64,000 nucleotides of DNA from Candidatus Fermentithermobacillaceae bacterium (GTDB lineage: Bacteria > Bacillota > Sulfobacillia > Fermentithermobacillales > Fermentithermobacillaceae), in the NCBI GenBank assembly GCA_012842685.1, contig DUSI01000049.1, positions 124,001 through 188,000 of the forward strand, given 5' to 3'. The notes below the pieces were generated by a model. That model had not been told where the DNA came from. It ran no database searches and was given only the letters and a program-made list of their open reading frames with translations. Every line of letters starts with the position of its first letter. Position 1 is the first letter of the stretch. The position numbers and the translations under genes were made by a program. Below, piece after piece: positions 6,324-11,997 of the stretch.

Positions 6324-7013
6324 TCAGTCCCTATCCCTGCTGCCTCTCAGCACCAAGAGCCTCAGGAGCTGGGCGACAGCGACCGCCAGACCGGCTACGT
6401 AGGTAAGGGCCGCCGCGCTCAGCATATTCCTCATGGGCCCCTCTTCTGCCGGCGCTACTAAACCAGAGACCTGGAGCATATCCATGGCCCGGCTAGAGGC
6501 GTTGAACTCAACGGGCAGCGTTATGGCCTGGAAGAGCACCGCCCCGAGGAAGAAGAGTATCCCGAGGTCCATGAGGAAACCTGAGTTCGTGAAAAGCCCG
6601 ATGAAGAACAGCGGGAAAGCCGCCTGCGACGTAAACTGGGCGACCGGGACCAGCCCGTTCCTTACAGCCAGCGGCGCATAGCCCACGGAATGTTGGACGG
6701 CATGGCCCACTTCATGGGCTGCGATGGCTATGGCTGCCACGGAGGAACTGTTGTAGGTGGAATCAGATAGCCTCAACGTCCTCGTACGGGGATCGTAGTG
6801 GTCGGTGAGGTGCCCTCTTTGCCTCTCTATCCTCACGTCGCCCAGCCCTGCGCTCCTGAGAAGAGCAGCGGCCACTTCCACGCCAGTCCGCCCCGTCCGA
6901 GACTGGAGCCGGGAATAGGTGTTGAACGCAGACTGGACTTTGGCCTGGGCCCATAGGGCGAAGAACATTGCCGGAATAACAAACAGCCAGTATCCCTGGT
7001 CGAAGAGCATCAT
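6324..7013 (-). CDS. neutral zinc metallopeptidase (YugP family, membrane)
   Basis: HEVGHAVQ motif, multiple TM segments, YDPRTRTLRLS. Confidence 0.9.
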   Translation of the reverse strand: MMLFDQGYWLFVIPAMFFALWAQAKVQSAFNTYSRLQSRTGRTGVEVAAALLRSAGLGDVRIERQRGHLTDHYDPRTRTLRLSDSTYNSSSVAAIAIAAHEVGHAVQHSVGYAPLAVRNGLVPVAQFTSQAAFPLFFIGLFTNSGFLMDLGILFFLGAVLFQAITLPVEFNASSRAMDMLQVSGLVAPAEEGPMRNMLSAAALTYVAGLAVAVAQLLRLLVLRGSRDRD

Positions 7014-8470
7014 GTCTCTACCCTCCCACTAAACGCACGAGTATTTGACCTTAGCCCCATGAGAAACGCGGCAGCGCTCATCACGGTCCGGCCTTCCGGT
7101 TGCACTTCCAGGACGGCGATGGGACCGTCGCCGCACTGGACCAACATGGACTCTCCCTCTACTCCAATTATGCTGCCCGGAGCGTGAGATCCTCTTGAAG
7201 GTCCGGAGTATATGCAAGTCTGCCAGATCTTTATACGTCTCCCGTCCAGGTAAGTAACCGCTCCCGGCCTGGGTGAAAGCCCTCTGACCAGGTTGTGGAC
7301 GCATGACGCGGGCTTCTCCCAATCGATGATGTCTTCGCCGGGTCTGAGGTGCGGCGCGTAGCTGATCTTCGATTCATCTTGCGGCGTCCTGGAGGCTTTC
7401 CCAACCGCCATAAGGCACACTACCTCTACCAACGCGTGGGCCCCGATAGAGGCGAGGCGCTTTTCAAGCGTCCCGAAAGTCTCGTTGGGGCCGATGGCTA
7501 CTTCCCTTTGGAGAGCTATGTCCCCCGCGTCCATGCGTTCGCTCATGTGGATGATCGAGACGCCGGTCACCTCGTCTCCGTTCATAACTGCCCTCTGGAT
7601 GGGATTACCTCCCCTGTACTTGGGAAGAAGCGAGGGATGGAGATTTAGGCACCCTATGCTCGGGGCCGACAGGATCTCCGTGGGGAGCTTCTGCCCGAAC
7701 GCAACGACGATCACGAAGTCGGGCTTTAGGTCCACTATCTGCCTTATGACCTCGGGGTCGCTTACTCGCTCGCAGGCAAAAACCGGAATGCCCATCTCTA
7801 TGGCACGGGCTTTCACGGGAGTAGGCCGCAGCTCGCGTTTCCTGCCGAATGGCCTGTCGGGCTGGGTTACTACCAGTTCAACCTTCACGCCCGCCGAGAC
7901 CAGCTCGTCCAGGGACGGCACGGCGAAGTCAGGGCTCCCCATGAAGACGGCCCGGATCTCCCTGGCTCCTTCCACTCCCTCCTGGGACTCTTCTTCCTCG
8001 TCTTTCTTTATCTCCGAGATCGTAGTGGCCCGGTCGGTATAGAGGATGCCGTCAAGGTGGTCTATCTCGTGGCAAAGCGCCCTCGCCAGGAATCCTTCTC
8101 CGTCGATCCAGATCGTGTGTCCGTCGCGGTCCAGCGCCTTCACGCTCACCCTGAGGGGCCTTTCCACCTCACCGACATAGCCCGGCAGGCTCAAACACCC
8201 CTCCACGCCCGTCTGGGTTTCTTCAGACCGGCTCACGATCTCCGGGTTTACGAGGAATATGGGACCTTCGCCCACATCCACGACTACCAGCCTCTTGGAG
8301 ATGCCTATCTGGGGCGCCGCAAGACCCGCGCCCGAAGCGTTCCGCATGGTTTCCAGCATGTCATCGAGGATTCTTCTAACCGCGTTATTGACACGGGGGA
8401 CCGGCTTGGCGATCTTGCGCAAGACCGGGTCGCCGAACTTCCTTATCTCGTGGATAGCCAAAAAAACCAC
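7010..8470 (-). CDS. def-fmt: peptide deformylase / methionyl-tRNA formyltransferase fusion protein
   Basis: One 486-aa ORF: Def motifs GAGLAAPQIG, EGCLSLP, HEIDH (about aa 1-150), acidic linker (about aa 151-171), then Fmt motifs FMGSPDFAVPSL, LHPSLLPKYRG. Confidence 0.93.
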   Translation of the reverse strand: MVFLAIHEIRKFGDPVLRKIAKPVPRVNNAVRRILDDMLETMRNASGAGLAAPQIGISKRLVVVDVGEGPIFLVNPEIVSRSEETQTGVEGCLSLPGYVGEVERPLRVSVKALDRDGHTIWIDGEGFLARALCHEIDHLDGILYTDRATTISEIKKDEEEESQEGVEGAREIRAVFMGSPDFAVPSLDELVSAGVKVELVVTQPDRPFGRKRELRPTPVKARAIEMGIPVFACERVSDPEVIRQIVDLKPDFVIVVAFGQKLPTEILSAPSIGCLNLHPSLLPKYRGGNPIQRAVMNGDEVTGVSIIHMSERMDAGDIALQREVAIGPNETFGTLEKRLASIGAHALVEVVCLMAVGKASRTPQDESKISYAPHLRPGEDIIDWEKPASCVHNLVRGLSPRPGAVTYLDGRRIKIWQTCIYSGPSRGSHAPGSIIGVEGESMLVQCGDGPIAVLEVQPEGRTVMSAAAFLMGLRSNTRAFSGRVET

Positions 8471-8556: not shown

Positions 8557-10548
8557 TCACTCAGTCTGAACCGGATCAATATCGACCAAGACCTTGACGG
8601 AGCTCCTCCTCTGAAGCGCCTCCAGGGCCCTCCCACACTCTGTCGCCAGACTCTCGTGGTCAGGACCCTTCAGGGCCACGTGCCACCTGTAGACTCCCCT
8701 CACCTTGGGTTTGGGAGCCGCAGCCGGGCCAAGCACCGTCACGTCTTCTGCCTTAGAAAGCCTTGACGCGAACTCGGACGCGGCCTCTTTCGCCTTTTCA
8801 AAGCTCCTGCTTTCAAATCTTACCCTGATAAACTTCCCAAACGGAGGGTAGCCGAGCATCCTCCTCATTTGGAGTTCGGTCTCGTAGAAACTCTCGCCGT
8901 CCACTGCTCCCTTGATGGCATGGTGGTCAGGGTTCCTCGTCTGGACCACGAAGGAGCTCCGGTCGCCAAGCCCTGGGTCAAGTAGGTCTTTGAGGTTCGA
9001 CAGGAGCTGGTACGCCCGTTCAGAGGCCCTGAAATCAGGTATGCTCAGGGGCGTATCGGCGGAGAGGACACCGACGAGGCCGACCCGGGGCATCTGGCTC
9101 TGCCCCAAGACGATCTGGGTGCACACGAGGCATCCGGGAGATAGACGCCCGAAGGCTTCCAGGATTTCAGAAGGCCTGGTTTTCCGCGTCACATCCTGAT
9201 CGAGCCTCAGCACTGGTATTCCCGGAAACTTCCTCTTGAACTCCGACTCCACCCTCTCTACCCCGACGCCGGAGAAACGCCAGTTGTGCCCCGAGCACTT
9301 AGGGCACACCACCGGGGCATCTTCCCTGTAACCGCAAGTGTGGCAAGCCATCTCCATCTCTTTCGAATGGTAGACCATGGGGACCCCGCAGCGGGGGCAC
9401 AGTATGACGCTCCCGCAGTCGCGGCACGAAACCTGGGAAGAATCGCCCCTCCTGTTCAGGAAGAGTACCGCCCTGAAGCCCGACTGGAAGGCCGCTTCAA
9501 GCTCTTCCCTCAATGGCTCGGAGATGATGTCGCGCCCGGCCCGGTATTCCTTGAGGTCTATGATCCGGGTACGCGGGATACCAGGTCCCGGGCTCTCTTC
9601 TCGCACGCACAACCACTTGGCGCTCCTTATCCTCAGGAAAGCCTCCACGCTGGGGTAGGCGCTCCCGAAGACCACCCGGGCTCCCATCGCGCCGCGGGCA
9701 AGAGCCACAGTCCTGGCGTCGAAGAACGGCCACTCGACCGCCTTGTGGGAGGGAGACGATTCTTCGTCTAGGACGACGAGCCCGAGGTCCTTGACCGGGG
9801 CGAAAGCCGCCGACCTGGTCCCCGCACCGATCTTCGCTTCGCCCCTCAAGAGGGCCAGCCACGCCGCCCTGCGCGCCAGCCCGGTCGTCTCGGAGCTGAG
9901 GAGGGATACCTCCCCTGGGAACCTCTCTTCCAGCCGTGCGAGAGCACCTTCCAGCACCTTGATCTCAGGTAGCAAGAACAGCACGGCTTTCCCGGCTCTC
10001 AAAGATTCTTCCGCCAGACGAAGATAGTGATGCCACCGGAAGTCCGCGCCGCCCCACACGTAGAGCACTGGAAGGTCCTCTATCTTCCCCCCGAGTCCTC
10101 GCGCGCTCTCGCCACAGTCATCAACCGGCGTCGATGCATGAGGCTGGGCGGAGAGCCACCCCTCTTTCAGGAGCCTGGAAAGAGACTTCTTGGGCACGAC
10201 CGGAGGGTACAGGTAGGACCACGCGGCGGCGGTGGTTGCCAGATGGTAGCGCCCCAAGGCTTCTATGAGGTCCAGGAGCTCGTGAGGAGGAAGAAACGCG
10301 AGGTCGTAGACCTCCTCGATGGCCTTTATGTCCCTGGGGAGTTTCTCTAGGCTCTCGCCCAGCACGTACCCATCCGCCTTCGTCCTAGCGAAGGGGACTC
10401 TGACCTTCGCGCCCCGAGGAAGGCTGATCTCAGCCGGGCAACAATAAGTGAACGCCCGGTCTCCCACCGCCGGCACGTCCACGAGGATATCGTAATACCT
10501 GAGGTCCATCTGCCCTAGGGACACGACCTCGTGTCCCCTAACGCTCAC
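8557..10548 (-). CDS. priA: PriA primosomal protein N', apparently lacking helicase motifs
   Basis: N-terminal YYDILVDVPAVGDRAFTY; zinc cysteines CRDCG, CPRCG, CHTCG, CPKC; LSADTPLSIPDFRASERAYQLL; no GxTGSGKT and no GRAGR. Confidence 0.9.
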   Translation of the reverse strand: MSVRGHEVVSLGQMDLRYYDILVDVPAVGDRAFTYCCPAEISLPRGAKVRVPFARTKADGYVLGESLEKLPRDIKAIEEVYDLAFLPPHELLDLIEALGRYHLATTAAAWSYLYPPVVPKKSLSRLLKEGWLSAQPHASTPVDDCGESARGLGGKIEDLPVLYVWGGADFRWHHYLRLAEESLRAGKAVLFLLPEIKVLEGALARLEERFPGEVSLLSSETTGLARRAAWLALLRGEAKIGAGTRSAAFAPVKDLGLVVLDEESSPSHKAVEWPFFDARTVALARGAMGARVVFGSAYPSVEAFLRIRSAKWLCVREESPGPGIPRTRIIDLKEYRAGRDIISEPLREELEAAFQSGFRAVLFLNRRGDSSQVSCRDCGSVILCPRCGVPMVYHSKEMEMACHTCGYREDAPVVCPKCSGHNWRFSGVGVERVESEFKRKFPGIPVLRLDQDVTRKTRPSEILEAFGRLSPGCLVCTQIVLGQSQMPRVGLVGVLSADTPLSIPDFRASERAYQLLSNLKDLLDPGLGDRSSFVVQTRNPDHHAIKGAVDGESFYETELQMRRMLGYPPFGKFIRVRFESRSFEKAKEAASEFASRLSKAEDVTVLGPAAAPKPKVRGVYRWHVALKGPDHESLATECGRALEALQRRSSVKVLVDIDPVQTE

Positions 10549-10814
10549 ACCAGCGGACCGGATTCACCCGGAGGCCCTTCCTCCACGTTTTCTCGGGCTT
10601 CCGCGGCCGTCTTGTTCCCCCGGTCTCGCTTTGCGAGCGTAACAGCGACTTTGCCTTGCTCTATCTCATGGAGAGCTCGCGTCACCGGCTTTTCGCCGGA
10701 AAGCATCGTGTCCTCTTTCCTGTCCACGATTTCCCTGGCCCTCTTGGCCACGGCGATAACCAGAGCGTACTTTGAGTTCAGCACTGAGCGGTTTAGATCC
10801 GCCTCAGCCACCAT
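10545..10814 (-). CDS. rpoZ: DNA-directed RNA polymerase omega subunit
   Basis: MVAEADLNRSVLNSKYALVIAVAKRAREI...KPVTRALHEIEQGKV; the 10946 start in the ORF track is an N-terminal over-extension into gmk. Confidence 0.9.
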   Translation of the reverse strand: MVAEADLNRSVLNSKYALVIAVAKRAREIVDRKEDTMLSGEKPVTRALHEIEQGKVAVTLAKRDRGNKTAAEARENVEEGPPGESGPLV

Positions 10815-11400
10815 GAGCCGTCCTCCTTTTGGAGCGGGCCCTCTCTCCCGCCACGATGGCGGACAACCTCTCGGTCGCCCGGTCAATATCGGAATTGATG
10901 ATAACATAATCGTAGGCGCTGAGATCGGACATCTCCATTTCAGCACAATCCAGCCTGAGGCGCCTCTCCTCTTCTGTCTCCGTGCCTCTGCCCAGGATAC
11001 GTTTTCTGAGCTCTTCCCTGGAAGGCGGAAGGACGAAGATGAACACGCCTTCCGGATATACCGACCGGAGGGTCCTGGCTCCCTGCACGTCCTTTTCGAG
11101 GATGACGTCCAGGCCTCTCGAAAGGGCCTCCTCGATGGGCTTCCCCGGCGTCCCGTAAAGGTTTCCGTAGACCGAAGCCCACTCGATGAGCTCCTGCCTG
11201 TCCCTCATGGAAACAAATTCTTCCCTGGACAAAAAGAAATAATCCACCCCGTCCTGTTCGCCCGGCCTAGGGGGGCGGGTGGTCACAGAGGGGCAAAAAA
11301 CGATATCCGGATCGCTCGCCAAGAGTCTGCGCCTCAGCGTCCCCTTGCCGCATCCGGATGGAGCAGTTATCACAAAAAGCTTTCCTCTCGACATAGGCAC
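10804..11400 (-). CDS. gmk: guanylate kinase
   Basis: KLFVITAPSGCGKGTLRRRLL, SVTTRPPRPGEQDGVDYFF, YGTPGKPIEEAL. Confidence 0.95.
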   Translation of the reverse strand: MPMSRGKLFVITAPSGCGKGTLRRRLLASDPDIVFCPSVTTRPPRPGEQDGVDYFFLSREEFVSMRDRQELIEWASVYGNLYGTPGKPIEEALSRGLDVILEKDVQGARTLRSVYPEGVFIFVLPPSREELRKRILGRGTETEEERRLRLDCAEMEMSDLSAYDYVIINSDIDRATERLSAIVAGERARSKRRTAHGG

Positions 11401-11682: not shown

Positions 11683-11997
11683 TCACTTCTCCAAGAAACG
11701 GGCCAGGAGGGCTTCCCTCTGCCTCTTGCCCAGGCCCTGGACGCGACGGGATTCGTCTATCCCGATCTCCTCCATGATCTTCTCGGCCTTTACCTTCCCG
11801 ACCCTGGGTAGGGACTTGAGAAGGTAAGAGACCTTCATCCTCTGGATGACCGCATCATCCTTGTTGTTGAGGACGTCGGCAAACTTTACGACGCCCTTCT
11901 TAAGTTTGGCCCTGAGCTCAGCCCTCGCTTTCCGCATTGTCTGGGCTTTCTCCAGCGCTTTCTTTTTTTCCGCAGGAGTCAGACTAGGAAGCGCCAT
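11683..11997 (-). CDS. mihF: integration host factor, actinobacterial type (mIHF)
   Basis: PSLTPAEKKKALEKAQTMRKARAELRAKLKKG...LPRVGKVKAEKIMEEIGIDESRRVQGLGKRQREALL (helix-two-turn-helix). Confidence 0.9.
   Translation of the reverse strand: MALPSLTPAEKKKALEKAQTMRKARAELRAKLKKGVVKFADVLNNKDDAVIQRMKVSYLLKSLPRVGKVKAEKIMEEIGIDESRRVQGLGKRQREALLARFLEK

Follow-up and report, generated by a model that had tools for sequence, protein, structure and literature searches.

The priA gene of the window, the whole 64,000-nucleotide stretch of DNA analysed here, very probably encodes the sole PriA of its host, a vertically inherited orthologue whose motor is dead and whose scaffold is under selection, and which would serve as an ATP-independent scaffold in replication restart. 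The protein retains the portions for binding DNA and partners and lacks those that use ATP, so a restart scaffold that works without ATP is the interpretation that fits best.

The window gene encodes a PriA without helicase motifs

The open reading frame at 8557-10548, on the reverse strand like all features of the window given below, starts with GTG and encodes 663 residues with no interruption of the frame. With the priA model TIGR00595 it scores 381.7 bits, against a curated cut-off of 230.35, which places it in the PriA family. As the score is far over the cut-off, this model labels the protein a 'restart helicase', an annotation to be taken with caution. Pfam matches over gathering were obtained for the 3'-DNA-binding domain (3'BD, PF17764, residues 20-115, 10204-10491), the PriA zinc ribbon (PF18319) and the PriA C-terminal domain (PF18074, residues 569-659, 8572-8844). 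The PriA sequences in the PDB can be aligned with residues 173-661, and a single-sequence structure prediction (pLDDT 41) was discarded.

The original prediction was of a PriA that had lost its helicase and ATPase motifs and kept its zinc-binding cysteines, and the alignment confirmed it together with each of the altered motif readings. The motif I (Walker A) site is the degenerate GGADFRWHHY (residues 166-175, 10024-10053), which lacks the GxxGxGKT pattern of active helicases; the codon of Arg171 (10036-10038) replaces that of the Walker lysine, K230 in E. coli. Motif II is altered to LDEES (residues 260-264, 9757-9771) and motif III to GSAYPS (residues 295-300, 9649-9666), and the former motif VI reads NLKDLLDPGLGDR (residues 518-530, 8959-8997) in place of QxxGRxGR. 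A Walker A motif was not found elsewhere within the protein. The zinc-binding region (residues 375-418, 9295-9426) retains all eight cysteines, at positions 375, 378, 384, 387, 402, 405, 415 and 418, and the segment SADTPLSIPDFRASER (residues 496-511) is intact.

To the parts described as kept we add one that is missing. At the place of the winged-helix domain of typical relatives there is a linker (residues 116-160, 10069-10203), as judged from interdomain length and sequence. The spacing between the 3'BD and motif I is about 71-79 residues in the order, compared with a median of 147 in intact relatives, in which a winged-helix-like stretch lies between the two. A short spacing was also observed in 2 of 44 intact alignment rows (50 and 79 residues), and the loss of the winged helix is therefore neither exclusive to motor-less PriA nor prevented by a strict requirement of the family.

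The motor-less state is shared by the order and under selection

The host genome, from Ca. Fermentithermobacillaceae, is 97.5% complete and the window priA is its only one: a profile search with TIGR00595 yielded no second, intact priA, the remaining matches being Mfd, RecG and UvrB, so that the claim of motor loss stands on this point as well. The order, one of uncultured Bacillota, was sampled with 17 genomes, one of which (G010) contributes a C-terminal fragment only. All 16 PriA sequences recovered, from two families, share the motor-less state, which is thus neither a chance event nor an assembly artefact, and a DNA pattern for VT[GA]SGKTE matched in none of the 17 genomes. Arg171, Asp261, Glu263 and the zinc cysteines are invariant across the order, and the frame is open in all its full-length PriAs. 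Among three members of the genus, dN/dS was approximately 0.11-0.13 for priA overall and 0.10-0.16 for the former motor lobe 1, rough values as dS is near saturation.

The motor was lost repeatedly in the class and the phylum

In the class, 112 of 154 genomes carry a Walker A pattern. Outside the order it is lacking in 25 genomes, which were inspected individually: many carry harmless variants of motif I (ITGSGKTE, VTSSGKTE, VTGSGKTH), PriA was not recovered from three (G023, G065, G153), and motifs I and VI are lost in three more families, f16 (G030, G044, G045, the last a fragment in which motif I only is visible), f30 (G046-G048) and f26 (G040, G151, G152). For the phylum, 200 genomes were drawn, 192 of them from other classes; inspection of the 15 other-class genomes without a match to a wider pattern, and of one doubtful match, revealed a single genome with lost motifs (G227, family f106), in a scan that may overlook losses masked by chance matches. 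Its PriA (L200) has KEVLKEKRNILYF at the motif I site and DQEHD at motif II, and motif VI is lost.

On a tree of rpoB and rpoC from 60 genomes, three changes are needed within the class. A single clade of all its motor-less families, i.e. one origin for all of them, was rejected on rpoBC (p 4e-5), while a clade of f1, f2, f16 and f30 was not (p 0.32); the trees were quick ones, with branch support by SH-aLRT only. Two to three losses within the class follow from these two results, and with the other-class case the phylum holds at least three, or four by parsimony, so that the motor looks repeatedly dispensable. We found no literature on PriA motor loss in Bacillota, in a search whose coverage mostly excluded subscription journals. 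Losses that recur beside close relatives which keep the motor form matched natural pairs, in which one can ask what the motor does and what replaces it.

Probable vertical descent and loss in place

The window row, gmk (10804-11400) - rpoZ (10545-10946) - priA - def/fmt - zinc peptidase - rsmB, is that of Bacillus (gmk-rpoZ-coaBC-priA-def-fmt-rsmB; B. velezensis was compared) except for coaBC and the zinc peptidase, and the order priA-def-fmt, with a fused def-fmt frame (7010-8470) as downstream neighbour of priA, is preserved in relatives wherever the flank is readable. The B. velezensis and window PriAs are alignable across about 490 C-terminal residues; the Bacillus protein has all helicase motifs, a longer region between the 3'BD and motif I, and 803 residues instead of 663. 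In profile searches the window PriA scored 438.5 bits with the canonical PRK05580.1-3 but at most 166.3 bits with PRK14873, and no model of this Actinobacterial group reached its cut-off; two other members of the order showed a similar gap. Among viral contigs, only one fragment of 32% was related to PriA. In phage and plasmid collections, the best matches listed were PriAs of other bacterial groups, with none from Actinobacteria or Deinococcota.

The loss of the catalytic motifs and the long branches in the PriA tree could suggest a decaying pseudogene on its way to being lost. This reading has next to no probability: it is refuted by the conservation across the order, unless expression were absent, since the full-length members are all open-frame with dN/dS near 0.1, the cysteines and R171 are invariant, no second copy exists in the genome and the synteny is conserved. 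The other origin to be weighed is transfer, either from a helicase-less lineage such as Actinobacteria or Deinococcota or by spread of one motor-less PriA among the families of the class. The free PriA gene tree speaks for it, as one of its branches, with a support of 87, has every motor-less PriA of the class on the same side. Nevertheless, when f26 was placed next to its rpoBC neighbours the likelihood of the PriA tree was higher than that of the free tree, as expected if long branches attract; the Actinobacterial models score far below the canonical ones, and the gene order is preserved. Of the independent loss or transfer proposed from the sequence of the gene, the profile scores, the Bacillus-like synteny and the rpoBC tree thus favour independent loss in place, and transfer is unlikely.

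Arginine at the Walker lysine and comparison with known PriA proteins

Using phmmer, residue 173 of the window PriA was paired with residue 232 of the 732-residue PriA chain in PDB entry 8fak, which we take to be E. coli PriA; Arg171 is therefore at the position of E. coli Lys230. Arginine occupies this position in 16/16 members of the order, in 9/9 sequences of f16, f26 and f30 and in the one of f106, whereas lysine is found in all 44 aligned intact PriAs. In the motor-less proteins the arginine is anchored by a conserved tyrosine four residues on (R-x3-Y), replaced by phenylalanine in one sequence, and each motor-less PriA aligned has the eight zinc cysteines. It is conceivable, if somewhat doubtful, that Bacillota PriA has repeatedly become a pseudohelicase with this arginine fixed each time, either as an obligatory first step or as a new structural lock, e.g. 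a salt bridge between Arg171 and Asp261 or Glu263 that would keep the lobes in an ATP-bound-like state. If true, the path from a replication-restart motor to an ATP-free scaffold would be predictable. The occurrence of lysine to arginine in every case provides a testable rule for spotting a dead PriA by its sequence.

Actinobacterial PriA (the PRK14873 group) is described as lacking helicase motifs and is of similar length (models of 651-764 positions). It had been put forward as the precedent for the window protein. With 438 bits for PRK05580 and 166 for PRK14873, this protein clearly lies nearer to the canonical group, and the closest tested precedent is instead the PriA of Deinococcus. D. 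radiodurans PriA, in which the lysine is likewise changed to arginine, has no ATPase or helicase activity and still binds single strands, forks and DnaB (PMC4504706). The window PriA shares with this pseudohelicase the lysine to arginine change (R171), the degenerate Walker A and B sites (DEEH changed to DEES for the latter) and the retention of DNA-binding parts, and Deinococcota control genomes match DciA, as does the order of the window. The two differ in phylum, and the window PriA, known from its sequence alone, has no winged-helix segment and a replaced motif VI; moreover, several separate losses within one phylum are found here. The E. coli K230R protein carries arginine at the equivalent position and has lost ATPase and helicase activities, primosome assembly being spared (PMC4504706). 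This is a laboratory point mutant, whereas the window arginine is natural, order-wide and accompanied by the loss of other motifs. PriA helicase activity is dispensable in laboratory E. coli yet conserved almost everywhere (PMC4504706), which leaves its natural role an open question, and the exception to this conservation for which we found biochemical tests is that of Deinococcus.

Helicase loaders, partners and a possible restart mechanism

DciA was found in all 17 genomes of the order and DnaB_2/DnaD in none of them. The Bacillota-type operon of the original description is borne out by the synteny, but the order carries DciA and not the DnaD route to be expected with such an operon, and the partners of its PriA differ in this from those in Bacillus. 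A search for DnaC/DnaI with PF01695 gave no consistent loader, only scattered matches of variable length that resemble IS21 ATPases and DnaA. Of the other motor-less families, f16 and f30 have DciA, while f26 has kept DnaD and lacks DciA. The type of loader thus does not decide motor loss, and a strict link between the two is ruled out.

Across the 154 genomes of the class, DciA is present in 127 and DnaB_2/DnaD in 17, nearly mutually exclusively, both occurring in G044.

In other bacteria, a DDDIPF-like tip of SSB recruits PriA and other proteins. The sole SSB match of the host genome (L202:1450-1836, reverse strand) ends in ...DDTFIDVDLDEEVEPEE and has no such tip, an observation made in this genome only. 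The usual contact between SSB and PriA may therefore be absent, which counts against the restart scaffold.

A purely structural role in restart, as first proposed, fits the data. A repaired or stalled fork would be recognised by the 3'BD and the C-terminal domain, the DNA would be held by the remnant helicase lobes, and the zinc region would bring in the replicative helicase, reloaded with DciA. The nascent lagging strand would not be unwound by an ATP-driven activity, and forks requiring opening would be prepared by another enzyme, possibly RecG, which is present in the genome, or by exonucleases. The loss probably started with lysine to arginine at the Walker position, as in the ATPase-dead but assembly-competent E. 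coli K230R, and drift of motifs I, II, III and VI would have followed, the winged helix being also lost in the order. The absence of ATPase activity, the restart role, the handover to DnaB/DciA and this order of mutations are inferred.

Two other functions have to be considered. In one, the protein is a remodelled enzyme, still ATP-dependent, with an atypical way of binding or using nucleotide through Arg171 and the retained acidic residues D261 and E263. The invariance of these three residues in the order would agree with this, but the glycine-rich loop and the arginines of motif VI are lost and K230R abolishes the ATPase and helicase activities of E. coli PriA (PMC4504706), so that continued ATP use is highly improbable. 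Somewhat less remote, and still improbable, is a different job, e.g. helicase loading at the origin only, restart being done otherwise; the absence of DnaD, the presence of DciA and the unusual SSB tip are in line with it, whereas the retention of the 3'BD and the C-terminal domain, through which known PriA proteins recognise fork DNA, argues against it.

Other features of the locus

The GTG start of priA overlaps the stop of rpoZ (10545-10548); the coaBC gene that Bacillus has between these two is absent. The downstream frame at 7010-8470 joins peptide deformylase (Def, residues 7-150) and methionyl-tRNA formyltransferase (Fmt, residues 175-473) in a single protein, and this fusion follows priA in 11/11 loci checked in the order and in further families of the class as well, one of them with an intact PriA (G025). 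Among named genomes, Candidatus Fermentithermobacillaceae bacterium UBA3951 (L036) is the closest, and the description of the class was based on a metagenome of a coal-fire vent (PMC10215811). A short distance upstream of gmk and its row, a gene at 11683-11997 encodes a small S13-like H2TH protein (PF22525), presumably a nucleoid protein similar in type to the IHF of Actinobacteria.
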